DNA of 64,000 bases, taken from the NCBI GenBank assembly GCA_030765065.1, contig CM060979.1, positions 18,443,001 to 18,507,000 on the forward strand. The letters run 5' to 3'. Every line of letters begins with the position of its first letter. Position 1 is the stretch's first letter. A program made the position numbers and the translations under genes. Under the pieces are notes generated by a model. It was not told the DNA's origin. It did no database searches and saw only the letters and a program-made list of their open reading frames with translations. The stretch comes from Deroplatys truncata. Taxonomy: Eukaryota; Arthropoda; Insecta; Mantodea; Mantidae. Shown piece by piece: positions 4,080-59,713 of this stretch.

Positions 4080-4559
4080 TATATTGCACGCCACTGGCTA
4101 TTTCTTGCAGTTCTTTTTCTTTACAGTAGGTAGAACTTGCTTCTTGATTGATACAGCCTGCGTTCTTCATTCACTGCTTGCTTTTTTATTACATTTCCTG
4201 CTGAAGGAGAGAATAACTCAGGATCATCTGCTCTCTTTCGCGTTTTTTCATCTCCTTCCATTTCTTCCTTGGAGGAAACATCCACGTTCAGGACAAAACC
4301 CTCCCGTTAACGAGAAATACCTATTGATATCTCCACAACACAAATGTTCCAGCATTTCATACTGCACGTGAGGAGCTTTGAAATAAAAGCTTCCTGCCTC
4401 TTTCAGACAAATTGAGGGTAGTCGCCATTAATAACAAAAAGCGTGGGATTTTCTGTTGGGATTGGTAAGCGGTCTGTATCTTTCGTCCCCTAAAACTTTA
4501 TTGCCTTTGTGCTTGTTTTATTTATCTGCTCTCACAGTGGCGCATAAAAATGTATAAAC

Positions 4560-4752
4560 GAGCGGAATCGCTATAGCAGTAACGTCTGTGGCTCTCATTC
4601 GAGAGGTCCCGAGTTCAAATCCCGTAGGTCGACCAATCTGACTGAAGTTTTTTCGTGAATTTCTTCAGTCGCCAAGGTAAATACCGGATTGGATGTTTAA
4701 TACCACGACCCAAAGTTCCACCTTAAGTCTGGTAATAGTGAATGCTCTGAAG
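4560..4752 (+). repeat. tRNA-derived SINE head and body of SINE-VNTR composite 1
   Basis: The A-box-like region is at about 4575-4590 and the B-box GAGTTCAAATCCCG at about 4611-4624. The body AATCTGACTGAAG...TTCTTCAGTCGCC and the block AATACCACGACCC...CACCTTAAGTC follow. The same sequence order is seen at 12005-12200 and, reversed, at 2530-2890 and 59220-59412. It ends at GTGAATGCTCTG and runs directly into the tandem array. Confidence 0.75.
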
Positions 4753-5475
4753 GAGGGAATCCGTATAGAAGCAAAGGTACAATTGCCTGGCCTAAGGCCT
4801 CTGCCGTGTGGAAACTGCCATCTGCTCGCCACGTGTAGAAGTAGAGATACGGTTGCCTGGCACTAAGGTCCCTGCGAACACACGTCGAAGCTGCCATCTG
4901 TCCATCACGTATGAAAGCAGAGATACAGTTGCCTAGCACTAAGGCCTCTGTGGACACGTGTTGAAGCTGCCATCTGCCCGGCACGAGTAGAAACAGAGGT
5001 ACTGTTGCCTAGCACTAAGGCCTCTGTGGACACTTGTCGAAGCTACCATCTTACCAGCACGTGTAGTAGCGGATACAGTTGCCTAGCACTAATGTCTCTG
5101 TGGACATGTGTTGAAGCTGTCATCTGCCCAGCACGTGTAGAAGCAGAGATACAGTTGCCTAGCACTAAGGCCTCTGTGGACACGTGTTGAAGCTGCATCT
5201 CCCCGGCACCAGTAGAAACAGAGGTACAGTTACTTGGCAATAAGGTCTCTGTGGACATGTGTCGATATTGCCATCTATCCGGCACGTATAGAAGCAGAGG
5301 TACAGTTGCCTAGCCTTAAAACCTCTGGGGACACTTGTCGAAGCTGCCAACGTGTAGAAGCAGGGATACAGTTGCCTAGCACTTAGGTCCCTGTGGAAAC
5401 GTGTCGAAGCTGTCATCTGCCCAGCACGTGTAGAAGCAGATACAGTTGCCTAGCACTAATGTCTCTGTGGACATG
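4753..5475 (+). repeat. VNTR of about 76-bp units in SINE-VNTR composite 1
   Basis: About ten tandem units. The shared start GTTGCC(T) occurs near 4782, 4852, 4928, 5004, 5078, 5154, 5229, 5305, 5370 and 5445, so the period is 74-76 with one short unit of 65. A unit contains GGCCTCTGTGGACACGTG and GCACGTGTAGAAGCAGAG. Frames stay open for 60-80 codons on both strands only because the period is not often broken; they show no coding character. Confidence 0.85.
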
Positions 5476-5590
5476 TGGGAACGCAAGATGGTATGGTACA
5501 GCGATGAGATCCAGAAGGCTAACTGTCCGCCACACAGCGATACAAGAAGTATCTCCTAACAGATCCATCGCGATATGACCACGTAGTTAA
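5476..5590 (+). repeat. Conserved tail of SINE-VNTR composite 1
   Basis: After the array come GAAGGCTAACTGTCCGCC, then AACAGATCCATCGCGATATG and an A-run. The same tail closes the composite at 12740-12835 and appears reversed at 36640-36720 and near 54480 and 54800. The order head, VNTR, tail, A-run shows these are one composite retroposon. Confidence 0.7.
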
Positions 5591-5888
5591 AAAAAAATTG
5601 AGTTTTATTTATGGACGCTCTTTAACTACTATGGTTCTTAGCGTCCCATTCTATATTGGGCGTGAAACACCTGTAATTTTGCTCAGATGGCTCTTTATCA
5701 GGCTTGAGGTTCTTTTACGTGCCGTAAATCTACGACACGGGACCACCGGCTTTACTTCCCTTCCGAAGGAAGCCGTGCTAACGATTTTTACGCCCGAAAA
5801 AATCCATCGCCCTCCGCCGGGTTTGAACCCGCGACCTTGGGAACTAGAGGCTAGCACGGTACCACTAGTCCACGGAGGACGACACCAC
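5591..5888 (-). repeat. tRNA-derived SINE (type 3), nearly full length
   Basis: On the minus strand the head has GTGGACTAGTGGTACCGTGC (A-box side, about 5870) and a B-box GGGTTCAAACCCGG near 5825. Downstream is a conserved middle with GGTCCCGTGTCGTAGATTTA and GGCACGTAAAAGAACCTC, then a tail ending at the A/T-rich junction with the composite tail at 5590. Other copies are at 28862-29080 and 36112-36318. The GGCACGTAAAAGAACC block resembles a central domain found in several invertebrate SINE families (from memory, not searched). Confidence 0.75.
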
Positions 5889-6510
5889 GTAGTTAGAAGG
5901 ATGTAAAATAGAGGGAGAGGGAGGGGGAAGTATGAGCATAGAACCAAAACGTTTAGAAATACTAATTCTGCTGACCGCAGCTACAAATAGTGTTAAGTAT
6001 GAGAAGTTTAGCGTACAGGACCGACCTATCAAAGACTTGAACCAGGTGCCCGCACCAAGGACATGTCCCACAACTCAGCATGTCACGTCTGTCACAGCAC
6101 CCACATACCACCTCACACTGTCTCATCTGTCGAATGCCTGACGTAGTACACCTGTTAAGTGCTTGCCTGTTCTGTCGACCTGAGCAAGATGTGTTATATA
6201 GGGATGATTGCAATATATGAAATCCGATTCGATACAAAGCATTGTTTCTCTTATTAAAATGCAAATTTATATGGCGGGTTGATTAAAAGTAACCACCCTG
6301 GTGCAGAGACAGCGAGTCCGGGTCAGGTTGCCTGTATAATCACGTGTAACTTTAGGCTCAATCGATTCGGGATCCCATTGTATTGGCTACATATATCCAT
6401 TACAATGAAACATTGCTTGGTAATTTATTTTTCTTCTCTTTAGCTCTATTTTCATGTCACAAATCCTAACCTGGTACCAAAAATAAAATATCTAACAGAT
6501 TTTCCTGTTT

Positions 6511-11150: not shown

Positions 11151-12004
11151 ACTGCAGATTTTGAAATCAGGCTTCCTACTTCATTAGCAAACAATACTAC
11201 CTATGTTATCTTACCTGTACACCAATATTTAGATAATAAAATATACATTTATAGTTCTAGGTAGCTAACGTGCCTGCCCTGGAGACTAAAGACATACGCC
11301 ACTGGAGGCGCCATGGAGAGCAGGGCTGAAGATTGCAGGAGAAAGGGTCAGCCCTCTAGGGATGATATCAAGTTTCAGATTTCCACCTAAACAAGCAAAA
11401 GCTGGTTTTCCTTCTCTCTGGTTTAGCGATTTGAAGCTTGCGATGGGACACAAGGAGGGGAAGACAATGACGTCGCCCTTGGCAAATCTATCCTCCGTGG
11501 GCCTCAAAGATTTATAAGCTTGCTCCTGGGTGGTGTCCCCATGAGCTCTCTTGGTTGGTGTGCGTGAGAGTAAAAAGAGAAGGTTATTGTTGATAACTAC
11601 TGCAGACAACACTTCCAGGTTTATTGCATGTAGAATCATGTATGATACTCGTTCATGCTCGCTAGTGTAGCCTAATTCACAACCTCTGCTTCATACTGAT
11701 AAATACGCTTAAGAAAACCTCGATTTGCTCCACTACATAGAAATTTAACTGGTCCAGTGGCCAGAATATCTGCAGAGACTTAGCCACGCGCCAGGGAAAC
11801 GATCTATAGACACTACAGTTGACGCTCTTCTTTGCCATTTACTGTGCAAATTCAACAACTTTTCTCTACACCCGGAAAACACAACTCTTCCGTATATACC
11901 GGTGCGAAAATATTTATTTACCTAACTATACAGGTAAGTCAGTTTTTTCAGGAAGAGCGTCGAAACGAGTTCTAAAAACGAAATTTTCCTGAAGTTACGT
12001 ACAA
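11151..12004. other. Unassigned stretch with one open frame
   Basis: A 117-codon minus-strand frame (11286-11639) is open. It has no recognisable motif, no homologue I know and no clear exon signals. I see no repeat family here. It could be chance, a fragment of an unknown element or a decayed exon. Confidence 0.3.
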
Positions 12005-12229
12005 TATTTTGTTACCGAGTGGGATGACTCAGGCGGTAAAATCTGTGACCCGCATTCGGGAGGCCCCAGGTTCAAATCCCGTGACCCAACCAATCTGTCT
12101 GAGGTTTTTCCGTGGTTTTCCTCAGTTGCCAAGGTAAATATCGGATTGCATATTTAATACCACGACCTAAAGTTCAACCTTAAGTCTAAAACAATAGTAA
12201 AATGAAAAATAAGTGGTAATAGCAAATGT
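12005..12229 (+). repeat. tRNA-derived SINE head and body of SINE-VNTR composite 2
   Basis: A-box region GACTCAGGCGGTAAAATC (about 12029) and B-box GGTTCAAATCCCG (12070-12082). The body CCGTGGTTTTCCTCAGTTGCC and block TTTAATACCACGACC follow, as in composite 1. A short stretch ending GGTAATAGCAAATGT corresponds to GGTAATAGTGAATGC of composite 1. Confidence 0.8.
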
Positions 12230-12770
12230 AAACAGCTAGACTGGACGGCACCCTAACACCATTTGCACGGCACGAAGCAGAAGATCTGACTGCCATGCGC
12301 TGGGGTGAGGAAGCAAGATGGCATTTCCAGGGATGAAACCTAGAAGGCTAACTGTCCGCCTTTCTGTGTGAGGACGGCGGTTAGACTGGACGGCACCTAA
12401 TGCCATTTGCACGTCAAGCAGTGGTTACAGGGATGATACCTAAAAGTCTAACTGCCCACATTCTGTGTGAGGGCGGCAGTTACACTGGACGGCACCTAAT
12501 GCCATCTGCACGGCAAGCGGTGGTTACAGGGATGAAACCTAGAAGGCTAACTGCCCATTTTCTGGGTGGGGGCGGCGGTTAGACTGGACGGCATCTAATG
12601 CCATCTGCACGGCAAGTGGTGGTTACAGGCATGAGATCTAGAAGCCTAACTCTCCGCCTTTCTGTGTGAGGACGGCGGTTAGACTGGACGGCACCTAATG
12701 CCATTTGCACGGCAAGCTGTGGTTATAGGGATGAGACCTAGAAGGCTAACTGTCCATCACATATCGCTCT
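12230..12770 (+). repeat. VNTR of about 99-bp units in SINE-VNTR composite 2
   Basis: Units begin TTA(G/C)ACTGGACGGCA at about 12381, 12480, 12579 and 12679, after a more diverged first unit near 12237, so the period is 99-100. Each holds CTAATGCCAT(C/T)TGCACGGCA and AGAAGGCTAACTG. The unit differs from the 76-bp unit of composite 1, although the fragment at 36655-36895 contains both kinds. Confidence 0.85.
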
Positions 12771-12840
12771 AAGAGTTTTCCACCAACAGATCCGTCGCGA
12801 TATGGCCAGGGAGTTAAAGCGACGTAAAAAAAAAAAGATA
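12771..12840 (+). repeat. Conserved tail and A-run of SINE-VNTR composite 2
   Basis: AAGAGTTTTCCACCAACAGA, then CGTCGCGATATGGCC, GTTAAAGCGACGTAAA and an A-run. Same tail as composite 1, better preserved. Confidence 0.75.
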
Positions 12841-13549
12841 GAAAGAAATATTTTGTTTCATGCTTTGTCGAAATACTTTATATTAGTTAAATTAATATTG
12901 TGCTGCACATTGTTGGACAGGAACGCAGTAATATGTTTCATATGCTCAAATACATGTTGGTAACCTTGGAGCTTGTCGGTGCAGTGGCGCCGTTCTCGGA
13001 GCAATATGAACTATTTCAACACATTGTTGAGCATGTGACTGCAGAAGCTCAGTAGCATTATGAAAACAAAAACTGTGGAAGTAAATCAATGAAGGTGAGT
13101 TATTAAGTAATATTCAAGTTTTAAAAGTAATATAGAAACGTGAGGTAATGCAATACGGAAGAAAAATGCTTATGAATAGTTATTCTCATATGTTGGTGTT
13201 GGAGTACAGAGAGTAACTGAACCAGCTTGACGTGCTGGTTTGGAGACAGAAAAATATGACATTCCAGATAGTATGATACAATACAATCTGTAGAAAATGT
13301 AGAGTACACAGTAGCAAACGAAGCATTTTGAGGTTAGGCGCATGGGATCGTAGATGTAGTATAATAACAGGAGCACTGCTTGAACAAACTTGAAATCTGA
13401 CTTTATGAAACATCAAAATGAAATGTAACTCACAAGTGTGTACGTACTGTTTTAACTAATGAGTTCTGGTACACAAAGGGAAGCTAGCGCGTACTGACAA
13501 AACGATATTACCGTACCGTGCAGTAGACTTCACATCACACACACCTGGG
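12841..13549. other. Unassigned stretch
   Basis: AT-rich. Three overlapping minus-strand frames of 60-76 codons (13121-13416) show no motif. No repeat family recognised. Confidence 0.35.
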
Positions 13550-19415: not shown

Positions 19416-20094
19416 AAAACAGGTTTATCTTTCAAAATACAACATAACATTTGTTAAAACTTTCAAATGCAGAGAGATGAAACAAAAGTCATGATGTTTA
19501 ATATGTCCTGGCTCGAAAGGGAAGCAGTAACCCGTCTTTTGTTTTTTCAATTAAAGGAAAGACCACGGAATCCGTACACAAGCAGTTTACTCAACCGAAT
19601 TTTGAACTCGGGCCCTGTGTATTACAAGCTATATCATATGGAGCAGGGACAATCTGATTTCTTATATCAGAAATCATGAATATACTTTTCCATCCATAAA
19701 CCAAATGTTTTTGAATCCTCTTTCTTCCGTGTTTCTATATTGGGATCAAACCGATGACCCCTAAACTGAGATCCAATTATATTGTCAATAGAACCTGGTC
19801 CCGTCTGCAAGTCTCTCAGTCGTGGAAAGTGAATGTCCTTCTCCGATCCTTGTAATCTACTTTAAATGCGATTTCTTTTCCCGCAGTGAAGCTGGCCTTA
19901 GGCGCAGACAGTCTCCAGCTATTACTGTGCTTCGTGAAGGGTAAGTAAGCCTGTAGATACCATCTCTGGAGCATCCCATCAGACTCGAGTCTTAAAAATA
20001 TCGTGGTATGCAACAGCGGCGCACATTTCAGCATCCCATTTCTCTGTTAGATAACAACCACTTCAGAGTTAATTGTTTTATAAAACTGTCCATT
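19416..20094. other. Unassigned stretch upstream of the minisatellite
   Basis: A 72-codon minus-strand frame (19816-20034) reads a peptide with SFTAGKEIAFKVDYKDRRR. It is more protein-like than other chance frames here, but I do not recognise it. It ends at a stop with no clear splice site and could be an exon relic. Nothing else is recognised. Confidence 0.3.
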
Positions 20095-21924
20095 TGTCCA
20101 GTTTTCACTGCCACTTCACTAATGTCATTTAGTTCAGTTCTCACTATTACTTCACTAATGTCATTTAGTTCAGTTCTCACTGTCATTTCACTGATGTCAT
20201 TTAGTTCAGTTCTCACTGTCACTTCACTGATGTCATTTAGTTCAGTTTTCACTGGTCATTTAGTTTACTTCTGTCACTTCATTAATGCCATTTAGTTCAT
20301 TTCTCATTGTTGCTTCACTGATGTCATTTAGTTCAGTTCTCACTGTCAGTTCATTGATGCGATTTCGTTCAGTTCTCACTGTCACTTCATTAATGTCATT
20401 TAGTTCAGTTCTCACTGTCACTTCACTGGTGTCATTTAGTTCAGTTCTCACTGTCACTTTACTGATGCCATTTAGTTCAGTTCTCACTGTCACTTCATTA
20501 ATGCCATTTAGTTCATTTTTCATTTTGCTTCACTGGTGTCATTTAGTTCAGCTCTCACTGTCACTTCATTAACGCAATTTAGTTCATTTCTCATTTTGCT
20601 TCACTGGTGTCATTTAGTTCAGTTCTCACTGTCACTTCACTGGTGTCATTTAGTTCAGTTCTCACTGTCACTTCACTGATACCATTTAGTTCAGTTCTCA
20701 CTGTCACTTCATTGATGCCATTTAGTTCATTTCTCATTTTGCTTCACTGGTGTCATTTAGTTCAGTTCTCACTGTCACTTCACTGATACCATTTAGTTCA
20801 GTTCTCACTGTCACTTCATTGATGCCATTTAGTTCATTTCTCATTTTGCTTCACTGGTGTCATTTAGTTCAGTTCTCACTGTCACTTCACTGATACCATT
20901 TAGTTCAGTTCTCACTGTCACTTCATTGATGCCATTTAGTTCATTTCTCATTTTGCTTCACTGGTGTCATTTAGTTCAGTTCTCACTGTCACTTCACTGA
21001 TGCCATTTAGTTCATTTCTCATTTTGCTTCACTGGTGTCATTTAGTTCAGTTCTCACTGTCACTTCACTGATGCCATTTAGTTCAGTTCTCAATGTCACT
21101 TCATTAATGCCATTTAGTTCATTTCTCATTTTGCTTCACTGGTGTCATTTAGTTCAGTTCTCACTGTCACTTCACTGATGCCATTTAGTTCATTTCTCAT
21201 TTTGATTCACTGGTGTCATTTAGTTTAGTTCTCACTGTCACTTCACTGATGCCATTTAGTTCAGTTCTCACTGTCACTTCATTGATGCCATTTAGTTCAG
21301 TTCTCACTGTCACTTCATTGATGCCATTTAGTTCATTTCTCATTTTGCTTCACTGGTGCATTTAGTTCAGTTCTCACTATCACTTCATTGATGCCATTTA
21401 GTTTAGTTCTCACTGTCACTTCACTGGTGTCATTTAGTTCAGTTCTCACTGTCACGTCACTGATGTTATTTAGTTTAGTTCTTATTGTCGCTTCACTGGT
21501 GCCATTTAGTTCAGTTCTCACTGTCACTTCATTAATGCCATTTGGTTCATTTCTCATTTTGCTTCACTGGTGTCATTCAGTTCAGTTCTCACTGTCACTT
21601 CATTGATGTTATTTAGTTCAGTTCTCACTGTCACTTCACTGATGTTATTTAGTTCAGTTCTCACTGTCACTTCATTGATGTCATTTAGTTCAGTTCTCAC
21701 TGTCACTTCACTGATGTCATTTAGTTCAGTTCTCACTGTCACTTCACTGATGTCATTTAGTTCAGTTCTCACTGTCACTTCACTGATGTCATTTAGTTCA
21801 GCTGTCACTGTCACTTCACTGACGAGGTTTAGTTCAGCTGTCACTTCACTGATGTCACCTAGTTCAGTTCCGTCACTTCACTCACGTGCATTAGTTCAGC
21901 TGTCACTTCACTGAACCACTTCCA
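20095..21924. repeat. 36-bp minisatellite, about 50 units, with a periodic 35-bp variant
   Basis: The unit is TCATTTAGTTCAGTTCTCAC followed by TGTCACTTCACTGATG. A 35-bp variant with TTCATTTCTCATTTTGCTTC recurs. Its GCTTC (once GATTC) lies at 20527, 20598, 20741, 20848, 20955, 21026, 21133, 21204 and 21347, spaced 71, 143, 107, 107, 71, 107, 71 and 143. Each spacing equals 35 plus 36 times 1, 2 or 3. Frames stay open on both strands because 36 is divisible by 3, but every 35-bp unit shifts the frame, so it is not a repeat protein. Confidence 0.9.
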
Positions 21925-24495: not shown

Positions 24496-25340
24496 CGAGG
24501 GCGGATTGATAAGTCAGTGACTTATTAAAGAAAATAACAAGTTTTTTTTCAATAAAGTTAATTATGTTTCTTCCTTTAATTCAATACACGTTAACTATCA
24601 CGCCTTGTGAATCCCAAAAGACAGCTGTCATGATTTTTCTTACCAACGGAATTGTTTTCACTTTCTTTGGAGCAGGTTCGCCGAAAGAAATCCACTGCTT
24701 TGATTGTTGTTTGGTTTAAGGTTGATAGTAATGGATCCAAGTTTCATCAACCGTGATATAACGCCGCAAAAACTCATTTGGGTTGCGCTGGAACATGTTC
24801 AAACATCCCTGTGAAATGGTCACACGATTCCGCTTGTTCTCAATTGTGAGCGGTAGCGGCATGTATCTTGCTGACGGTTTTCTCATCCCAAAAATTCGTG
24901 CAGAATGTTATACACCCGTTCACTCGAGATGTCTACAATCTTGGCTATCTCACGGATTTTCACCCGGTGGTCTTCCAGCACAATATCGTGAACATTGTTC
25001 AGCATTTCTTCTGTTGTGACCTCAACCGGTCGTCCTGTGCGCATGGCATGTCTTGTGCTCGAACGGCCACATCGAAATTCTGTGAACAACTTGTGAACCA
25101 TGCCATGTGATGGAGGCGAGTCCCCATAATACTTGTTCAGCTTTTCTTCCGTTTCCTTCACCGTCTTACCACGCAACAAGTAGTGCCTTATACGAAATTT
25201 TAGACGCTCCCAACAATGTTCTAAGAAACAAATGAAGACGAATTATACCCAGAATAGATGTAAGAGTTGGGTGCAAACAAGAAACCTGTTATTAGAACGC
25301 TATCTCTCGTCAAAGTCATGAACTTATCAATCCTTCCTCG
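24496..25340 (-). mobile_element. mariner element, internally deleted
   Basis: Left CGAGGGCGGATTGATAAGTC and the reverse complement of the right end, CGAGGAAGGATTGATAAGTT, are terminal inverted repeats. Both are flanked by TA (24494-24495 and 25341-25342). At 845 bp it is about 450 bp shorter than a full mariner. The transposase part is on the minus strand and ends after the region of the first catalytic Asp and the VFWDSQG block. Confidence 0.85.
24600..25179 (-). pseudogene. mariner transposase, N-terminal part
   Basis: The N-terminal 98 codons (24883-25179) are open: GKTVKETEEKLNKYYGDSPP, then FTEFRCGRSST and GRPVEVTTEEM form the paired helix-turn-helix region, and VKIREIAKIVDISSERVYNI the second helix set. 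After a frameshift near 24883 the downstream part (24600-24860) still reads the block VDETWIHYY with the first catalytic Asp, then the VFWDSQG region. The second and third Asp regions are deleted. A stop replaces Glu or Pro shortly after WIHYY. The protein cannot be made or be catalytic. Confidence 0.8.
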
Positions 25341-29687: not shown

Positions 29688-30933
29688 CACTATGTGATCA
29701 AAAGTATCCGGACACCCCCAAAAACATACGTTTTTCATCTTAGTGCATTTTTCTGCCACCTTCTGCCTGGTACTCATTATCCGCGACCTCAGTAGTCACT
29801 ACACATCGTGAAACAGCAGAATGGGACGCTCCGTGGAACTCACGGACTTCGAACGTGGTCAGGTGATTGGGTGTCACTTGTATCAGAAGTCTGTACCCGA
29901 GATTTCCACACTCCTAAACATCCCTAGGTCCACTGTTTCTGATGTGATAGTGAAGTGGAAACGTGAAGGGACATGTACAGCACAAAAGCGTACAGGCAGA
30001 CCTCGTCTGTTGACTGACAGAGACCGCCGACATTTGAAGAGGGTCGTAAAGAGTAATAGGCAGACATCTATCCACACCATCACACAGGAATTCCAAACTG
30101 CATCAGGCTCCACTCCAAGTACTACGACAGTTAGGGTGAGGTGAGAAACCTTGGATTCCATGGTCGAGCGGCTGCTTATAAGCCACACATCATGCAGGAA
30201 AATGCTATTCGACGCCTCGCTTGGTGTAAGGAGCGTCAAAATTACACGACTGAACAGTGGCAAAACGTTGTGTGGCGTCACGAAATCACGGTACACAACG
30301 TGGCGATCCGATGGCAGGGTGTAGGTATGGCGAATGCCCGGTGAACGTCATCTGCCAGCGTGTGTAGTGCCAACAGTGAAATTCGGAGGTGGTGGTGTTA
30401 TGGTGTGGTCGTGTTTTTCCTGGAGGGGGCTTGCACTCCTTGTTGTTTTGCGTGGCACGATCACATCGCAGACCTACATTGATATTTTAAGCACCTTCAT
30501 GCTTCCCACTGTTGAAAAGCAATTCGGGAATGGCGGTTGCATCTTTCAACACGATCGAGCACACGTTCATACTGCACGGGCTGTGGCGGAGTGGTTACAC
30601 GACAATAACATCCCTGTAATGGACTGGCCTGCACTGAGTCCTGACTTGAATCCTGTAGAACACCTTTGGGATGTTTTGGAACGCCGACTTCGTGCCAGGC
30701 CTCACCAACTTACATCTATATCTTTCCTCAGTTCCCCACTCCGTGAGGAATGGGCTGCCATTCCCTAAGAAACCTTCCAGCACCTGATTAAAAGTATGCC
30801 TGCGAGAGTGAACGCTGTCATCAAGGCTAAGGGTGGGCCAACAACATATTGACTTTCAGCATACCGATGGAGGGCGCCACGAACTTGTACGTCATTTTCA
30901 GCCAGGTGTCTGAATAGTTTTTATCACGTAGTG
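29688..30933 (+). mobile_element. Tc1-like element, full length but dead
   Basis: Left CACTATGTGATCAAAAGTAT and right, in reverse complement, CACTACGTGATAAAAACTAT are inverted ends reaching to CC/TC-AGACAC. Both are flanked by TA (29686-29687; 30934-30935). The 1246-bp length is normal for Tc1 and the transposase fills the interior in three frame segments. Confidence 0.9.
29821..30855 (+). pseudogene. Tc1-like DD34E transposase, frameshifted
   Basis: Segment 1 (29821-30144) carries the paired-like DNA-binding domain: ELTDFERGQVIG, STLLNIPRSTVSDVI, then the GRPR hook (TGRPRLLTDRDRR). Segment 2 (about 30140-30344) reads RRLAWCKER and WQNVVWRHEI, where the usual WSDES holds the first catalytic Asp; here it is His, followed by a 1-bp shift. 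Segment 3 (30334-30768) has [23 protein letters not shown] with the second Asp and [12 protein letters not shown] with the Glu, 34 residues apart (DD34E). A stop ends it 27 codons early (30767), after which KSMPARVNAVIKAKGG continues. Loss of the first Asp alone would abolish catalysis. Confidence 0.9.
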
Positions 30934-36543: not shown

Positions 36544-36619
<76 letters not shown>

Positions 36620-36627
36620 TATTATTA
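36541..36627 (-). repeat. (AAT)n tail
   Basis: About 28 ATT units on the plus strand. They adjoin the reversed composite tail (AAAGCGACGTAAATT on the minus strand), so they are its 3' simple-repeat tail. Confidence 0.85.
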
Positions 36628-36895
36628 ATTTACGTCGCTTTAACTACTTGGTCATATCGCGACGAATCTGTTAGTGGAAAACTCTTAGATAGATGTGAGG
36701 CGGACAGTTAGCCTTCTAGGTCTCATCCCTGCAACCACTCGCTTCGTCACGTGTCCACAGAGAACTAGCGCATAGCAACTGGGTCTTCTGCTTCGCGCCG
36801 TACAGATGGCATTAGGTTGTCGTCCAGTCCAACTGCCGCACTCATATAGAAAGGCGGACTGTTTGCCTTCAAGGTCTCATCCCTGTAACCATACC
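36628..36895 (-). repeat. SINE-VNTR composite fragment (tail and VNTR)
   Basis: On the minus strand the tail has CGTCGCGATATGACC and CTAACAGATTCG. One and a half VNTR units precede it. They contain both CTCTGTGGACACGTG (as in the 76-bp unit) and GACTGGACGACA (as in the 99-bp unit), suggesting the two arrays come from one longer ancestral unit. Confidence 0.7.
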
Positions 36896-40019: not shown

Positions 40020-41215
40020 CAACGGCGGATCGAAAAGTAACGCACAATAATTTTTTTTCTGCCTTGGTATTCCAGCTGGAATGTTGCAATTTCACACAGA
40101 TATAGTTTGAAGTTTTCACTACAGAGGGTACTTTTTGTTTCATGTGCAGCTCTAGCGAGAGAAGCGCGCACTTCGCAACAAAATGGCGCGCATGTTACTG
40201 TCGTCCACGTGTGAAGAGCAGAGAGGTGTGGAGGGCATAACCGAGTGATATTCACAGGGATATGCGTGGCGTGTATGGGGATGATTGTATGGACCGTAGC
40301 AATGTCTCCAGATGGTGTGCATTCTTCACAGGGCCCTGTGAACCATAGTGATTCGCCACGCTCCGAGAGGCCGGTAATAGCTGCAACCTCGCAGAATGTC
40401 AGAGGCATCGAGGCGGCAATTTTGTACGACCGGCGTGTGCAACTGCGAACCTTATCGCAACAGTTCTACATTTCCTATGGTGCAGTGTACGATATTGTTC
40501 ATGACACGTTGAAATTTCGTAACGTTAGTGCTCGCTGGGTGCATAAGAACCTGAAAGACAACCACAAGGGCCAGCGAATGATGACGAGCTTGGATCACCT
40601 AACGCGGTACACCGCAGAAGGGCATGACTTTCTGAAAGCAATCGTCACTGGTGATGAGCCGTGGGCATACCACTACACGGCCGAAACCAACCATGCTGGT
40701 TTCCCAGTGAAGAAAAAAATCAAAGTGACTCAATCTGCTAGGAAAGTGCTTGTGACGGTGTTCTGGGATGTGCATGGTGTTGTATTGGTGGACTTTGCTG
40801 AACACGGGACCACTGTGAATGCTGCAGCCTACATGAAAACTTTGGTGACGTTGCGTCGTGCCCTTCATGACAAACGCCACAACATGAATGCTGACGATGT
40901 TAAAATTCTTCATGACAATGCTTGCCCCATGTTGCTGCTCCTGTTCGTCAGAAAATCACCAAATTAAGTTGGGAGGTGCTCCAGCATCCACCATACAGTC
41001 CGAAACTTACACCGTCGGACTTTTATCTGTTTGGTCCCGTGAAGAAATTCCTGGCCGGCCAACGCTTTGCGACAGATGCGGAAGCGAAATCAGCAGTCCG
41101 CAGATGGCTATACTCCAAGGAAACGAACTTCTACGAACAGGACATATTGAAACTGGTATCACGATGGAAGAAATGTGTTGAGAAAATGGGCGACTATGTT
41201 GACAGGTAAGTAAAA
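40020..41215 (+). mobile_element. mariner element, right end lost
   Basis: The left inverted repeat starts CAACGGCGGATCGAAAAGTA after TA (40018-40019). Transposase follows. After the stop at 41209 the right inverted repeat is missing; DD41D transposase sequence begins within about 20 bp. Confidence 0.85.
40200..41209 (+). pseudogene. mariner DD34D transposase, nearly complete but frameshifted
   Basis: The N-terminal helix-turn-helix part (about 40200-40380) is in broken frames. From 40380 one frame is open to 40967: RVQLRTLSQQFYISYGAVYD, then WVHKNLKDNHKGQR (WVPHxL region), VTGDEPWAYHY with the first catalytic Asp, VTVFWDVHG and ILHDNAC with the second Asp. Loss of one C in a C-run at about 40925 shifts to the frame 40922-41209: PYSPKLTPSDFYLFG carries the third Asp, 34 residues from the second. 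About 10 residues are missing after YTAETNHA. The catalytic triad is otherwise intact, so the copy died fairly recently compared with its neighbours. Confidence 0.9.
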
Positions 41216-43966: not shown

Positions 43967-44798
43967 TTCACGTGACTTTCTCAACTTATTCTTCCAAAAC
44001 TTATTCTCAGAAAAGTTTATTTTCTCTAGTACTTATAGTAAGTAGGGGAAATATTGCATTCAACCCAAAAATTCAATACCAAGATTTCACAAGAGATACA
44101 TGTTTTAAGGCCCACCTGAATTCAAATAAAACATTTTTGGAAACGTGTCAGTGTGTGTGTGTATAAACAGCATAACTCAAAAACGAAAATTTGGATAAAT
44201 ATCAAAGTTGGAATAATCCCCAACACCAACTATCCTTTACATGTAACATTTTTCGAAAATTTTGATTTCGTAAAAAACGGTCTACAATTATTATTAAAAT
44301 ACCGTATATTAAAAATATTTAGATGACAAAGAGAACATTTTGAATTTTCTGGGAATAGTCTTTGAAGTCCTCTTCATTCGGAAAAAATGGTATAATCTTG
44401 TAACACTAAAAAGAGAGGGAGGGTGATCTCTTTAAAATACACAGTTTATTTAAAATAAGCTTTTTGAAACATAAGCCGTTTCTAAGATATCAGAATTGTT
44501 CCATTTGTGGTCATTCTCTTAAAAGTCCTGTCAACATTTAGTTTATCGCGAGGTCATGGAAACAGTATGGACTTTTAAGGGCAGCATGTAGCGTCCAGTT
44601 GTTAGACATTTGACTATCGCTGTTTTCTTTGTATCTATAACGAAATGTGTAATGTAGCTATTTCTCAAAAGGGTTATTTGGTTTAAAATGTAGTAGATAG
44701 AAAAATAAACTTGAATAAGAATAGATAATTTGTGTACCCACTAATAAATAAATAGAGGGTAGAGAAAGTCATGTGGTATTATCATTAAGATTTTTTTT
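43967..44798 (+). mobile_element. HINE-like copy 15 with a short inverted piece at its left
   Basis: The main copy begins ATTTTCTCTAGTACTTATAG at 44022 and ends GTAGAGAAAGTCATGTGG...AAGAT, T10. The piece 43967-44020 (CACGTGACTTTCTCAACTTA) is a 3' end in reverse orientation. Confidence 0.7.
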
Positions 44799-44835
44799 TT
44801 TCATTTCATTATGTTCTCCAAATACTATTACCAGT

Positions 44836-45656
44836 TAAGGGTTTTAGGGAACTACCAGAACGATTTCATATTTCTCCCAGTCAATTTGGTTTTAGAATAG
44901 GACACGGTACTACTGATGCTGTAATAGGTTTTTTTAGACGAACTTTGGATGCTTTTGAAGGTAGTTTTCCATTCTATGGCCGTTTCTTTAATCTAACAAA
45001 GGCCTTTGATACAATTTCACACGAAATACTTTTAAAAAAGTTAGCCTACTATGGTTTTTATATTAGCATAAATTTAATACGTTCTTACCTAAGTGACAGA
45101 TATCAGGCTACTTATGTTAGTGACCAAAAATCTAGTTTTAAAAGGATAAAGCAATGTTGTCCCGCAGGGCTCGGTACTGGGACCTATTTTCTTTCTGGTG
45201 TATATCAATGATTTTCCGGAAGCTATACAAGACGAATGCCATTTGCTGATGATTTAGCATTGAATATATGTTGTAATGACAATGATACTCTCACAAGTAA
45301 ACTTAAAGATATAACTTCAAGAGTAAATCACTGGTGTCACTCTAACAGATTGATACTTAATCAAGATAAGACTGTGGATCTCAGTTCTGCTGACTCTAAT
45401 CCTTCAACAGTCAAATTCTTAGGCATTTATCTTGAATCTAAATTAGGGTGGAAATCCTACATAGAGTACATCTCAGGGAAACTGAGTAAAGGAGTGTTCA
45501 TGCTACGTGCACTGAGCCAAACAATAAATAATAAGTCATTACTGTCAGTGTATTACAGTAATATATACTCCATTTTAAATTATGGTGTGTTACTTTGGTG
45601 CAACCATACCTATGCTAATAAGCTTTTTATTTTACAAAAGAGAGCGATAAGAATAG
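44836..45656 (+). pseudogene. LINE reverse transcriptase (Jockey/CR1-like), upstream piece
   Basis: Blocks in order: PSQFGFRIGHGTTDAV, LTKAFDTISHEILLKKLAYY with the first catalytic Asp position changed to Asn (FNLTKAFD for FDLTKAFD), a frameshifted CPAGLGTG/LFLVYINDF region, and FADDLALN with the catalytic Asp pair at about 45241-45264. Then WCHSNRLILNQDKT, VKFLGIYL and the thumb region to LQKRAIRIA. The piece is 5' truncated: no endonuclease or ORF1. The DD41D relic interrupts it at about 45656 and it resumes at 46431. Confidence 0.85.
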
Positions 45657-46427
45657 CGTTTCTGCATCCTGGATGGCTGCTCCATAAACCAATGATTTAA
45701 GATGCCCCCAGAGGCAAAAATCCACAGGATTGAGTTCGGGAGAAAGTGCAGGCCATGGAACTGGTCCTCCTCTGCCTATCCCTCCATGCTGTCACGTGTG
45801 ATGTACCATGCCACAGCCAATTGTCGTACTGATACCTGGATCGTCTTCGACACACTTTAACATCTGTTCTTCGCGTACGAACAACTCTTGGTCTTCCTCG
45901 ATCAATAGTCCGTGGTGCAACGGTTCCTGTCTCAGCAAGGCGACGATAAACAGCGACAAAGGTTGGATGACTCGGTTGTCTTCGGTCTGGAAACTCCATC
46001 TGATAGAGCAGTGCAGCCTCGCGTCCATTACCATTCGCGCGACCATACATAAAAATCATGTCTGCCTGTTCACGAAATGAATATCCAGCTATGGTGGAAC
46101 GAATCACGTGCAGTTAACACACTACATGTGCACAATTGAAACGTTGAAGACAGACTAATCACAAATGACAAACGTAAACAAGTCTCCATGGCAACACTTC
46201 GCCATCTATCGTATGTAGTACAATGGGTCAACGCCTTCTATGAATGCATAGAGAAATGAAGTTTTGAGGTTGGACCCCGAAGGCCGTTGAACTCACACTT
46301 TCATTGTGACAGGAATAACGCGAAAACCGAGGATTATGGGACATATGTTCATATGAACTTTTTCCTTCTTTTGGTGTGAGGAACCCATACCCGAAGTTTG
46401 TAAAAGTATTTCTGAAACATCCTGTAT
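45656..46427 (-). mobile_element. DD41D-group element, internally deleted, inserted in the LINE
   Basis: The right end on the plus strand (TGAAACATCCTGTATA) mirrors the end at 42195-42206. The two copies share a long terminal region including ATGTTCATATGAA. The interior keeps the N-terminal transposase part and a short C-terminal part only. The left end is truncated, so no TA pair can be checked. Confidence 0.75.
45660..46107 (-). pseudogene. DD41D transposase, N-terminus joined to C-terminal motif
   Basis: From 46107: YSFREQADMIFMYGRANGNG, RRQPSHPTFVAVYRRLAETG (helix-turn-helix region), then a shifted frame with LKCVEDDPGISTTIG. Then, after loss of about 500 bp, FPWPA-like sequence and NPVDFCLWGHLKSLVYG (about 45665-45720) appear in another frame. 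The segments with the first and second catalytic Asp are deleted. Confidence 0.75.
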
Positions 46428-50800: not shown

Positions 50801-50858
50801 TTTTTCCACACAAGCCGTGTGTTAGACAAGGTTGGAAAATTAGAAAGAAAAATTCAAA

Positions 50859-50930
50859 GCCATAGCCGGGATTTGAACCACGAATCTCCCAGTCTCCATC
50901 CGGTTGCTCTAACCACTGAGCTATCATGGC
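50859..50930 (-). repeat. tRNA-like sequence (SINE head or tRNA pseudogene)
   Basis: The minus strand gives a 72-nt sequence with A-box TAGCTCAGTGGTTAGAGC and B-box GGTTCAAATCCCG. The D arm GCTC/GAGC pairs. The acceptor stem pairs at five of seven positions plus one G-T. The anticodon stem pairs 4 of 5 and the loop would read GGA. T-stem pairing is poor. A similar flanking motif (ACAAGCCGTGT...GACAAGGTTGGAAA) occurs on both sides (50812 and 51118), which suggests a repeat unit rather than a working tRNA gene. Confidence 0.55.
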
Positions 50931-54477: not shown

Positions 54478-54970
54478 AAGAGATACCTTGTGGATCGGTG
54501 TGCGGCGGACAGTTAACCTTCTAGGTCTCATCCCTGTACCATACAATCTTACTTCGACACGAGTCCACAGAGGCATGTGCATAGCAACTGTAACTCCGCT
54601 TCAACACGTGCCGGCCAGATGACATTGGGGTACCGACTCTCGTGTAAACATATGGGAGGGATGGGAGGGAGGGTCTACCTGACCCTGATGGGAGGGTCTT
54701 CTTCGAAGGTCTACGCCTACGCCCCCTCCTAACAACCCAGGGTCGGCGCCTCCGAGCGACTCTACAAGCGTGGGGGTTTCCCATGAGACCAATATCGCGA
54801 CGTATCTATTAAGAGATACCTTGTGGATCGGTGTGCGACGGGCAATTAGCTTTCTAAGTCTCATCCCAAACAATCTTACTTCGTCACGTGTCCACAGATG
54901 CATGTGCATATCAACCGTACCTCTGCTTCTACACGCGCCGGGGAGATTACATTAGGGTGCCGTCTCTTCT
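54478..54970 (-). repeat. SINE-VNTR composite fragments, two copies 331 bp apart
   Basis: AAGAGATACCTTGTGGATCG starts at 54478 and again at 54809. Each is followed by the reversed VNTR motif (CGTGTCCACAGA, CCGGCCAGATGACATT / CCGGGGAGATTACATT). Between them lies a GC-rich stretch with GGGAGGGATGGGAGGGAGGG. This points to a local duplication or two insertions of one long VNTR unit. Confidence 0.6.
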
Positions 54971-54989
54971 GATAATGTTTCAACCTAGA

Positions 54990-56470
54990 ATGACCCTCTT
55001 GTAAACATATGGGAGGGAAGAATGACGGAGACAGTGAGACGGAATGCTCTTAGGCTGCTGGTTGGTGGAGGGAAGTTCATTGAGGTTTTCTTTTATTGGA
55101 GCATCGAGATGCCTGAGGAAACATCGCAGAGCCACCAAGCCTGCTAAGGCAGGAATCTCCTCTTCTGCCCCGGCATATCTGCCGAGGGAACTTCGCCGCA
55201 GTCGCCACAGCCTGGTCAAGCTACGCCTTGGCCATAGCTTCGCCGCCCGCTAGCGCAGCTTCGCCGCGACCGTTCCTGCAGTCGCCGCCTCACTCACCGG
55301 CAACCACGCTGCCGATTCTGCGAACTTCCCTGCCACCGCAGGGCCAGCCTGTGCCTCAAGGGAGGTACAGTGCTGTTACCAGAGGGGTCCCGAAGGACCT
55401 GCCAGTCAGGTCCCTCAACACCGCAGCTCACCTGAAGGTCACCAGGATTATCGGAGCACAGGGACCCACGTCGCTCGTCAGGATAGGGTTTGCAGACCCT
55501 GGCGACTAGAAGCGGCCTTGAAAGCGGGCCTGCCCTTGTTAGGGCGGTGATTACGCATCGAGGCCAGCCGAGTGGAACGTCAGGCTCCCTGCCGACGCTG
55601 CTCTGCCTGCGGGCACACTGAGACGTCCTGCACACCACAACCGAGGTGCCACTGCTGTGGCGCCTGCAGCACCACTGCTTCGTGCAAGCAGCACATCTGC
55701 GTAATCGCCGCCGTTATTGTGCAACTTGTGGAAGTACGACTCAGTTCACCGGCCAAGGGCTCTGCCCCCTGCATCCTCGCAAGAAGGCATCGCCGAAACC
55801 GCCTGCTCCTTCCACGCCACCGCAGCTGACACCATCACCACCACTACAGCCTACAGCGGTCACCTTGGAATCATCACCAACACACTCGACCGGAGCAGCG
55901 ACACGGGAAGCCATTCAGGATCTTCATGCCGAGTTTCTGAACTTCGGTGCCCTTTTAGCCGCTCTGGAAGCGTCCATATCAGACATCACAAAGCAACTTC
56001 AAATTCTAAAAACATTTGTGGATGTTAATCATCAGGCCATCGCCACCGAAGTTCCAGCCCGGTTAGAGAAAGTATACGATCACCTCTACGACGTGGAGAG
56101 CTTGGCAGCGAACTACAACACGCCGCCGAACAGAAGGTATCACCGTCACTAACCTTTACCACTACCACCAGGAATCCTTTCTTATCCTCACCTTTAACTT
56201 ATCTGTGAGGCAGGCTGGGCCTTGGTCAAGCCTGTCTCCCAGCACACATCCTTACTCCTCTGGCGACCGCACTGCGGCCCAGTTTCAACTATCACCTTGG
56301 AATGCGTGGGTGCTTTAGGCGGTACCGCAGCAAACCTTCTCCTTTCAATCCGGTGGAGGAGTTTTTAGTGGGTATGCCGACTATTTGATGAGTCCCACAC
56401 TCTCAGCCGCGACTCCCTTCGGGTCTGGGATTAGTGATTAAATAATTTTCTTCTCCACTCGAAAAAAAAA
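54990..56470 (+). mobile_element. LINE relic carrying only ORF1, with 3' end and A-run
   Basis: Much GC-richer than its surroundings. The ORF1-like coding relic (55080-56152) is followed by about 300 bp that looks like LINE 3' untranslated sequence (TTTTTAGTGGGTATGCCGAC at about 56363) and A9 at about 56461-56470. No reverse transcriptase is present, so it resembles a HAL1-type half-LINE or an internal deletion. Confidence 0.6.
55080..56152 (+). pseudogene. LINE ORF1 (gag-like, zinc-knuckle) protein, frameshifted
   Basis: The Pro/Ser-rich N-terminal part runs to about 55350. RYSAVTRGVPKDLPVRSLNT and GPTSLVRIGFADPGD (about 55362-55508) match the RRM-like region found in Jockey-group ORF1. A stop and shift follow. 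Then CRRCSACGHTETSC (55590-55631) is a CX2CX4HX4C knuckle, followed by a damaged second one (CHCCGACSTTASC) and a third (YCATCGSTTQFTG) after a shift near 55650. The C-terminal part, open to 56152, has a Pro-rich stretch and a probable coiled coil (FLNFGALLAALEASISDITK onwards). In intact elements this protein binds the element RNA. Confidence 0.75.
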
Positions 56471-57838: not shown

Positions 57839-59219
57839 AAAATATCGTGCAATGTTAATATTCCAGCCTGTTTCACTTGGAGCAGTGTGTACGTGTTTTT
57901 AGTTATTTGCATTGCCCAGTAAGAAAGGAAGTACAAAGTAGTCTCTCTTCATTTGTTCGCCTTATTAATCTTCACTTATATTCAGCATTGTTAGCACAAG
58001 CGCGTATGTTTTCTAAGAGGCCCTTAAGCCTTGTTGATATATTGAAGTAGAGCCGTAACCTTTTTTTAGATAGCGCTAGAATTGTGGATGTCAACACATT
58101 CCTTACAGCCACATTCTCGTCAGGGGAACACAGCAATTGTATTCCAATTCCACACGGCTCTCTCAGAACAAAGTAGGTCTCGAGATGAATGCTGATTCAG
58201 TTGTTACTGTTTATCGCGCAGAGTCGCTTCTGATATTAAAGACCGTATTTCCTACGCCTCTCGCATACTTCACAGCCCAGAACACTTACATATACGTCTT
58301 AGTTTATAGACACCTTTAGAATATCATAGTTTCCACTTAGCCTCAGATTTTCAACCACGTTTATTTTTTCCACAACCTGAGGCAGATAGGATTGCTTTCG
58401 TCTAACTCAGCAATATATAATTATTATCCAGACATACATTAATCTCCTTTTAATTAATTCATTATCAACCAAATTCTGTTTCTCTTCAATCACATAAGTT
58501 ATTTATCTTTCTTCAATTATTCTATCATTTCATCTTGGTTTACATCTAAGCAAAATCTTCTTATACAAATGTTTGCCTAAATTTTAAATGATGCCTTTTG
58601 TTTCAATTGTCTGAAATGGGCTATTTAACTTTATAATCTCTATTTTAACTTCTCTTAAAAAGTTTTTCTCCAACCATCGATAATCATATCTCCTCCAAGT
58701 ATTGACATATATTTGTTATAGTTAATAGGGCTCACTGAGATTAAAATAAAACGTATTTTATAATCCAGAAAATACCTCCTCCCCCTTCATGCAAACAAAT
58801 CCGTAGTATTACGAAGAAAAGTTCTATTTTCTTAGCATTTCATACCAGAAGGAATATGCAATTTAAAAACAGTCAGATTATCATCACGTAACAGGTCGTC
58901 AGTTTGCCGAAACAAAACACAGGCTAGGCAAGCCTTAAGAAGTGGCGAGAAGCAAATGAAGCCGCATTGTTTCGCGATGCTCAAGAAATAAACATCGATG
59001 CATAACTTTATGCTACTACACGTAATATTAATTCTTTAACATATAGATTTAATAAGTTACTGGCAATGTCTTACTCGATAAATTGTCAAAAATTTAGCGC
59101 TGCTACAGCTAGTGTGTATGCACACGTGTAGCGTCAAACACGTGGCGGTTTGGGCCTTCTTGTTTACGATAGGATCGCTCTTGTCTGACACAGAATATAC
59201 CTGTTTTCAATATTTGTGG
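57839..59219. other. Unassigned stretch
   Basis: About 1.4 kb, very AT-rich from 58320 to 58800 (many CTTTTAATTAATTC-type tracts). No repeat family or coding motif recognised. Confidence 0.4.
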
Positions 59220-59412
59220 ATAGAATGCAGAGCATTCACTATTGTCGTCTATTTTTCATTTTACTTTTTGTTTGTTAGTTTTAGATTTATAATGGACCTT
59301 TGGCGACTGAGAAACCAAAAAGAAGAAGTCAGATTGGTCGCCTTACGGGATTCGAACCCAGGAATCTCCCGAATACGAGCCACAGAAGTTACCGCCTATA
59401 AAGCTGTTTAAC
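59220..59412 (-). repeat. tRNA-derived SINE (type 1), reversed
   Basis: Contains GCAGAGCATTCACTATT (distal end), TGGCGACTGAGAAACC, and GGGATTCGAACCCAGG (B-box complement, about 59347-59362). A shortened copy of the SINE head-body used in the VNTR composites. Confidence 0.7.
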
Positions 59413-59713
59413 CCCGTCAAATATATTTCAAATATTCAAACGTAGACTCACTGCTATTCCAGAAATGTGCACCATTACAACGTACCCTAACAGATAGAGC
59501 TTTTTTACAACTTCTGAAATAAATATACATGATTCTTAAAACATGGTTCACAGTACTTTTCATATTTGATCTATCTAACAACAGACATTTTTGAGTTTGG
59601 TACTGTAAAATATTTCCAAATGTTATTAAGTATACTGAAATCAGAGGCTGATAACTTTGAAGTTTAGAGGAAATAACCAATTGAAAATGTGCAATTTTGT
59701 TTCACTGATTTTT
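59413..59713. other. Unassigned stretch
   Basis: No recognised element. It separates the SINE from HINE-like copy 21. Confidence 0.4.

Follow-up and report, generated by a model that had tools for sequence, protein, structure and literature searches.

A probable tRNA-derived SINE family with tandem arrays cut from different parts of its own body

We analyzed a stretch of 64,000 nucleotides, referred to below as the window, with positions counted from its first letter and minus-strand positions marked rc. Two loci, one at 4.5 kb (element 1) and one at 12 kb (element 2), each begin with a tRNA-like head and a conserved region behind it, continue with a tandem array, and close with a tail that both have in common. 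An earlier, sequence-only reading of this DNA had reported a common order of head, body, array, and tail at the 2 loci, and we confirmed it: identity is 82.6% between the heads (155 bp) and 77.9% between the tails (95 bp). The different arrays that it described, with units of 76 and 99 bp in about 10 and 5 copies, were recovered by TRF as 76 bp × 9.7 and 99 bp × 4.3.

In element 1, the head, comprising the tRNA-like part and the conserved post-head region, lies at 4557-4746 on the plus strand (head profile, 204 bits) and ends in TTTAATACCACGACCCAAAGTTCCACCTTAAGTCT. On the same strand follow the array of the 76-bp unit (4762-5477; 9.7 copies with 76% matches by TRF, and unit mapping) and the distal body and tail (5478-5589; sequence comparison and tail profile), which run up to a nested insertion and end there in TCGCGATATGACCACGTAGTTA. 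The insertion is a second SINE on the minus strand (5590-5883) flanked by a 12-bp duplication, ACCACGTAGTTA, at 5578-5589 and 5884-5895, a string with no other occurrence in the window. The A-run after element 1, previously taken to close that element, is the nested minus-strand SINE's and not element 1's own. The remainder of the element 1 tail, GAAGGATGTAAAATAG, resumes at 5896-5911 on the plus strand and, in an alignment by eye, matches the sequence with which the other tails end, AAAGCGACGTAAAA. With the A-run reassigned, no target duplication was detectable around element 1, 1472 of 3000 random flank pairs scoring as well, and its absence is in keeping with the age of the element. A duplication picked out by eye, TTTTATTTAT, was dropped since its downstream copy sits inside the nested SINE. 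The nested copy belongs to another SINE family, which looks tRNA-type by eye, has its own 3' stem-loop, and is also present at rc 29063-28847 (91%) and rc 36317-36105 (89%).

The array of element 1 appears to contain a block duplication in which A-B-C became A-x-B-y-C. Three variant-bearing strings, chosen by eye and without a control, recur with their order kept at offsets of 225, 301, and 367 bp, and unit pairs 2-5, 4-8, and 3-7 are 96%, 92%, and 89% identical; no long high-identity self-matches were found in this array at the set cut-offs. From these recurring strings, it seems that multi-unit blocks were duplicated and that further units were added since, which points to exchange at the DNA level.

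Element 2 is bracketed on the plus strand by an 11-bp target-site duplication, AATATTTTGTT, repeated exactly at 12003-12013 and 12847-12857, with just these 2 occurrences in the window and 0 on the other strand. Enclosed between them, all on the plus strand, are the head (12014-12202; profile, 204 bits), with A box TGACTCAGGCG and B box GGTTCAAATCC; a first, nearly complete body period that keeps most of the core (12233-12361; alignment, and 110 bits with a body profile built from 4 copies, this period among them); the array of the 99-bp unit (12328-12756; 4.3 copies with 85% matches by TRF), the unit consisting of the two body flanks and a filler, with the core missing; and the tail (12720-12846; tail profile and folding), with a CGTCGC/GCGACG stem-loop, a 20-nt loop, and an A-rich end. 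The target duplication was equaled by 9 of 3000 random flank pairs and, in another test, by 94 of 20000. Since it encloses head, array, and tail, element 2 was inserted as one piece.

Further copies on the minus strand are partial. The copy rc 36891 (36629-36891; similarity search and alignment) is truncated at its 5' end and comprises a 99-type junction as in element 2, one complete body, the tail with its stem-loop, and (AAT)n; the adjoining (TAT)n run of 27.7 copies at 36545-36627 is the (AAT)n tail of this SINE copy, rc 36891-36629, and thus a microsatellite at a SINE end. Two copies without head or array were identified by alignment and profiles, with a single-copy body followed by a tail at 54790-54990 and by part of a tail at 54478-54650. 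These 2 headless copies, rc 54990 and rc 54650, which lie within 54478-55010, share direction and about 20 bp of upstream sequence that is absent from the other copies, and they look like a duplicate pair; given this different upstream sequence, body and tail may belong also to another element. Similarity search and profile further located the rc 2889 copy (2427-2891), with head, middle, and one truncated body unit, no tail, and an insertion of ~115 bp between head and middle (by eye), and a copy with only a head, internally deleted, and the middle (59195-59414). A target duplication around the whole composite, the check suggested with the sequence-only reading, was supported in 1 of 4 copies tested, element 2, against element 1, rc 36891, and rc 2889, the candidates at the last 2 being weak (72 and 193 of 3000 random pairs as good, respectively).

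The 76-bp and 99-bp units are different pieces of one SINE body of ~150 bp. The claim that the 2 arrays use different units was borne out for unit length and not for descent, as the sequences are not unrelated and both map to one body. When the 76-bp unit is aligned to rc 54990, to rc 54650, and to the second body in rc 36891, it corresponds to the contiguous body core, and alignment to the same single bodies and rc 36891 resolves the 99-bp unit into the body flanks, with the core absent and a filler of roughly 20-26 nt. The stretch multiplied in one array is therefore the one lost from the other. Two copies of CGAAGC flank the core in rc 36891 (read from the alignment), a pair that would suit deletion between short repeats. 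A foldback hairpin was predicted in the 99-bp unit, with folding no better than that of shuffles (z −0.52). Both unit types had also been reported in the fragments at 36628 and 54478, and rightly so: both fragments hold the body from which both units derive.

We searched the heads for pol III promoter boxes and the tails for conserved folding. The B box is present with 0 mismatches in both heads (AGTTCAAATCC in element 1, GGTTCAAATCC in element 2). The A box of element 2 has 1 mismatch at +11, 11 nt past the target duplication, whereas that of element 1 has decayed to 3 mismatches at +11, with the best A-like matches (1 mismatch each) at +3 and +17. The majority sequence of 4 heads at the A box is TAGCTCAGGCG. 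Under a looser test allowing ≤2 mismatches in an A box at +11 and ≤1 in the B box, which was passed by 2 of 20000 random places, element 2 passes and element 1 fails. Neither ARAGORN at default settings nor Rfam called the heads as tRNA, and a relaxed ARAGORN setting gave a tRNA-Ala call in the element 2 head; because no call was made at normal thresholds, we name the head tRNA-like and infer its tRNA origin.

The 6-bp stem CGTCGC/GCGACG with its 20-nt loop is found in 2 of the 3 tails tested, intact in element 2 and rc 36891 and broken in element 1. Out of 200 shuffles each, folding was as good in 1 for rc 36891 and 20 for element 2. As a 6-bp stem of about this geometry also occurs in 804 of 20000 random 45-mers, the stem by itself is modest evidence. 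Near its 3' end, the nested SINE (5590-5883) forms another stem of comparable size, whose loop also contains AGTAGTTAAAG, and 0 of 200 shuffles folded as well. The loop motif AGTAGTTAAAG is common to the tail of the first family and the nested SINE family, which suggests one putative partner LINE for both. No partner LINE was found.

Taken together, we consider it probable that the window holds one old, long, tRNA-derived SINE family whose body duplicates in tandem and is remodeled at the DNA level and that at least 1 duplicated form has been mobile. The complete form would be ~0.5 kb long, with a pol III head, the conserved post-head region, the middle, a single-copy body of ~150 bp, and a tail in which a 3' stem-loop precedes an A-rich or (AAT)n end. 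Such copies would presumably be transcribed by pol III and copied into the genome by LINE machinery that recognizes the tail with its stem-loop. Body duplication may have arisen by unequal exchange or by microhomology-mediated template switching, and the 99-bp unit may have lost its core through the CGAAGC repeats found on either side of it in one copy. One or more copies with a duplicated body would then have served as a source for retroposition, with most of the array length acquired or remodeled later, copy by copy, at the DNA level.

The case for mobility comes from the junction between units. The rc 36891 copy starts within a 99-type unit and crosses a junction of the element 2 type, formed by GTCCGCC, the filler, and TTRGACTGGACG, and its positions 10-99 align across this junction with an element 2 unit (90 bp at 83% identity, E 7e-22). 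A 38-base junction query matched 4 junctions of element 2, a 14-base piece of element 2, and rc 36855-36821 (83% over 35, E 0.35), and neither single-body copy; the junction alone is not significant at this E value, and the shared junction is claimed from the 90-bp match. The 3' ends differ, with an A-run in element 2 vs (AAT)n in rc 36891, and the 500-bp flanks of element 1, element 2, and rc 36891 have nothing in common at E 0.01. As the 99-type junction is common to element 2 and rc 36891 despite these unrelated flanks, the comparison suggests at least one retroposition of a copy whose body was already duplicated. Points against the preferred reading are that each long array type is complete at one locus only, that the 5' truncation of rc 36891 hides the length of its array, that target duplications outside element 2 are weak or absent, that the head is recognized as tRNA only at a relaxed setting, that element 1 has a decayed A box and a broken 3' stem, and that few heads and tails are linked.

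The divergence between units does not decide whether whole arrays were mobile. Mean K80 is 0.211 among the 76-bp units (36 pairs) and 0.128 among the 99-bp units (6 pairs), which is of the same order as the divergence between insertions (0.213-0.260 for heads and 0.145-0.280 for tails). A more far-reaching version of the preferred reading is possible, if rather doubtful: an arthropod SINE with master copies that have duplicated or multi-copy bodies, and whose minisatellites would spread by retroposition and then switch between amplification of core and flank, would have arrived independently at an SVA-like lifestyle using its own body.

Somewhat less likely again is the model proposed for reptile SINE-derived satellites, in which single-body SINEs were inserted, arrays formed later in place, and none was ever mobile. 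It would account for units and breakpoints that differ between elements 1 and 2, for the single-body copies elsewhere, for the block remodeling in element 1, and for a divergence between units that is on average no larger than that of heads between insertions. However, purely local growth sits poorly with a 99-type junction and filler common to element 2 and rc 36891, whose 3' ends differ and whose 500-bp flanks are unrelated, and we regard it as unlikely.

SVA has Alu-like and SINE-R parts, and its VNTR constitutes a module distinct from the SINE portions. The sequence-only reading had named these loci an SVA-like composite retroposon, of which we retain a tRNA-headed element with a variable array between constant ends and, at element 2, insertion as one unit, and discard the foreign VNTR module, as each unit comes from the body of the SINE itself, a body present once at rc 54990-54790 and once at rc 54650-54478. 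A truly SVA-like system, with a long-array source gene whose copies arrive with full-length arrays and vary in copy number, agrees with the target duplication that encloses head, array, and tail of element 2 and with the junction common to element 2 and rc 36891. Yet the 2 full arrays use different units, no 2 loci in the window have a long array in common, each long array type being complete at one locus only, and the array is the SINE's own body and not a separate module, so that this explanation appears quite improbable.

We also examined how often head, body, and tail are linked in the window. The head profile, built from 4 window copies (12015, 4558, rc 2890, and rc 59414), matched 6 sites, namely these 4 builders, 8323, and 14800. 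The tail profile was built from 5 copies identical to its 5 long matches (rc 36737, 12720, 5491, rc 54869, and rc 54544), and it gave 5 more short matches, 4 within the array of element 2 and 1 at rc 36890. Copies of the family are thus dispersed over the 64 kb, whereas the 3 profiles (head, body, and tail) had 0 matches in the reversed window. Allowing ≤2 mismatches, TCGCGATATGACCA occurs at 3 sites, in the tails of element 1 and element 2 and at rc 36662-36649.

Heads and tails joined end to end account for 2 of the 6 heads and 2 of the 5 long tails. The concern that heads and tails might be mostly unlinked elsewhere, raised with the original claim, is therefore partly justified, since 4 of 6 heads lack a tail and 3 of 5 long tails lack a head; truncation would explain these counts as well. 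Of 200000 trials with random placement, 4647 produced at least 2 links. Spacing by itself is therefore weak evidence, and stronger evidence comes from the target duplication of element 2 and the overlapping partial copies. Across the copies, head and middle are joined at 4 loci (element 1, element 2, rc 2889, and rc 59414), middle and body at 3 (element 1, element 2, and rc 2889), and body and tail at 5. These joins are what a family of truncated and eroded copies should show. That the head of a SINE merely lies close to an independent repeat that forms arrays, as the few linked heads and tails and the random trials would allow, is scarcely credible with both parts inside the target duplication of element 2, the main evidence against it, and with the same middle connecting the head to the body in rc 2889 as well, a third locus.

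We compared the preferred reading, a SINE family with a duplicating body, with known systems, and the closest appear to be the SINE-derived satellites (sSats) of squamates, which these elements seem to resemble more than they do human SVA. According to the available sections of PMC10702118, sSats are tandem repeats whose units derive from various portions of a tRNA SINE and which keep SINE ends. They form a series from internally duplicated SINEs up to long satellites, and the units of Squam3 measure 67-215 nt. As in sSats, the units here come from part of a SINE and differ per locus, SINE sequence stands at the ends, the units number from few to many, and some contain extra nucleotides of uncertain origin (same sections of PMC10702118). 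Most sSats have one extended terminal unit, with both termini as a minor variant (PMC10702118, same sections); elements 1 and 2 have both termini, and a duplicated form here seems to have been retroposed. Longer sSat arrays tend, not strictly, to be more homogeneous, and here the reverse holds for 2 arrays only (9.7 copies at K80 0.211 vs 4.3 copies at 0.128). A preference for subtelomeric sites is another feature of sSats. The sSat authors were uncertain whether such satellites are restricted to squamates (PMC10702118, available sections). On our reading, tandem arrays derived from SINEs would reach beyond reptiles into an apparent insect genome. Dimeric SINEs and SINEs with internal duplications of ~30 nt also exist (as cited in the available part of PMC10702118); in these the duplication lies inside a mobile SINE, as here, where the units measure 76-99 bp and reach up to 10 copies.

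SVA and LAVA elements are described in the accessible portion of PMC4432496 as hominoid-specific, with a VNTR long taken for GC-rich repeats of 30-50 bp and with DNA-level remodeling that involves microhomologies of 5-42 bp. Mobilization by non-LTR machinery, constant ends, a central tandem array, and DNA-level remodeling with microhomology would be common to both systems (PMC4432496, same portion). The differences are that the units here are the SINE's own body, that the head is tRNA-like, and that single-body copies are present. Among cockroach elements, Sbg1-Sbg9 of Blattella germanica have a tRNA-type promoter, lengths of 306-658 bp, and simple-repeat or poly(A) tails; the 9 SINEs start 11 bp before the A box and have target duplications of 10-15 bp, and Sbg3 copies have differing short duplications at the tail (PMC9191728, text available in part). 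Element 2 is like them in its 11-nt spacing from border to A box and its 11-bp target duplication, a likeness by description only, and the available description of Sbg1-Sbg9 says nothing of arrays of body units inside the element (PMC9191728). Among the literature matches listed, titles and abstract starts included no SINE from an insect in which body units form an internal array, in a search with subscription journals mostly outside its range. Four element patterns gave 0 matches each against viral contigs, and one scan of a species-genome collection also gave 0; both sets may exclude records near the source genome, and these negatives carry little weight.

These copies make the birth of a minisatellite readable step by step, from a single body to a duplicated body with a common junction and on to a core that was either amplified or deleted. 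If duplicated copies were mobile, retroposition would be a route by which satellite seeds are scattered.

Other repeats and gene-like sequences were identified elsewhere in the window. A 36-bp minisatellite occupies 20091-21912, with ~46 copies in the main TRF row and a 107-bp higher-order period. Pieces of mariner-/Tc1-like transposases lie at 24883-25242, 29812-30768, and 40215-40967, some with domain scores below the Pfam cut-off, and reverse transcriptase pieces, below the Pfam cut-off, at 44789-45700; these pieces would fit an arthropod host and do not prove one. A tRNA-Ser (gga), either a gene or a SINE head, was called by ARAGORN on the minus strand at 50858-50930 and recognized as tRNA by Rfam.
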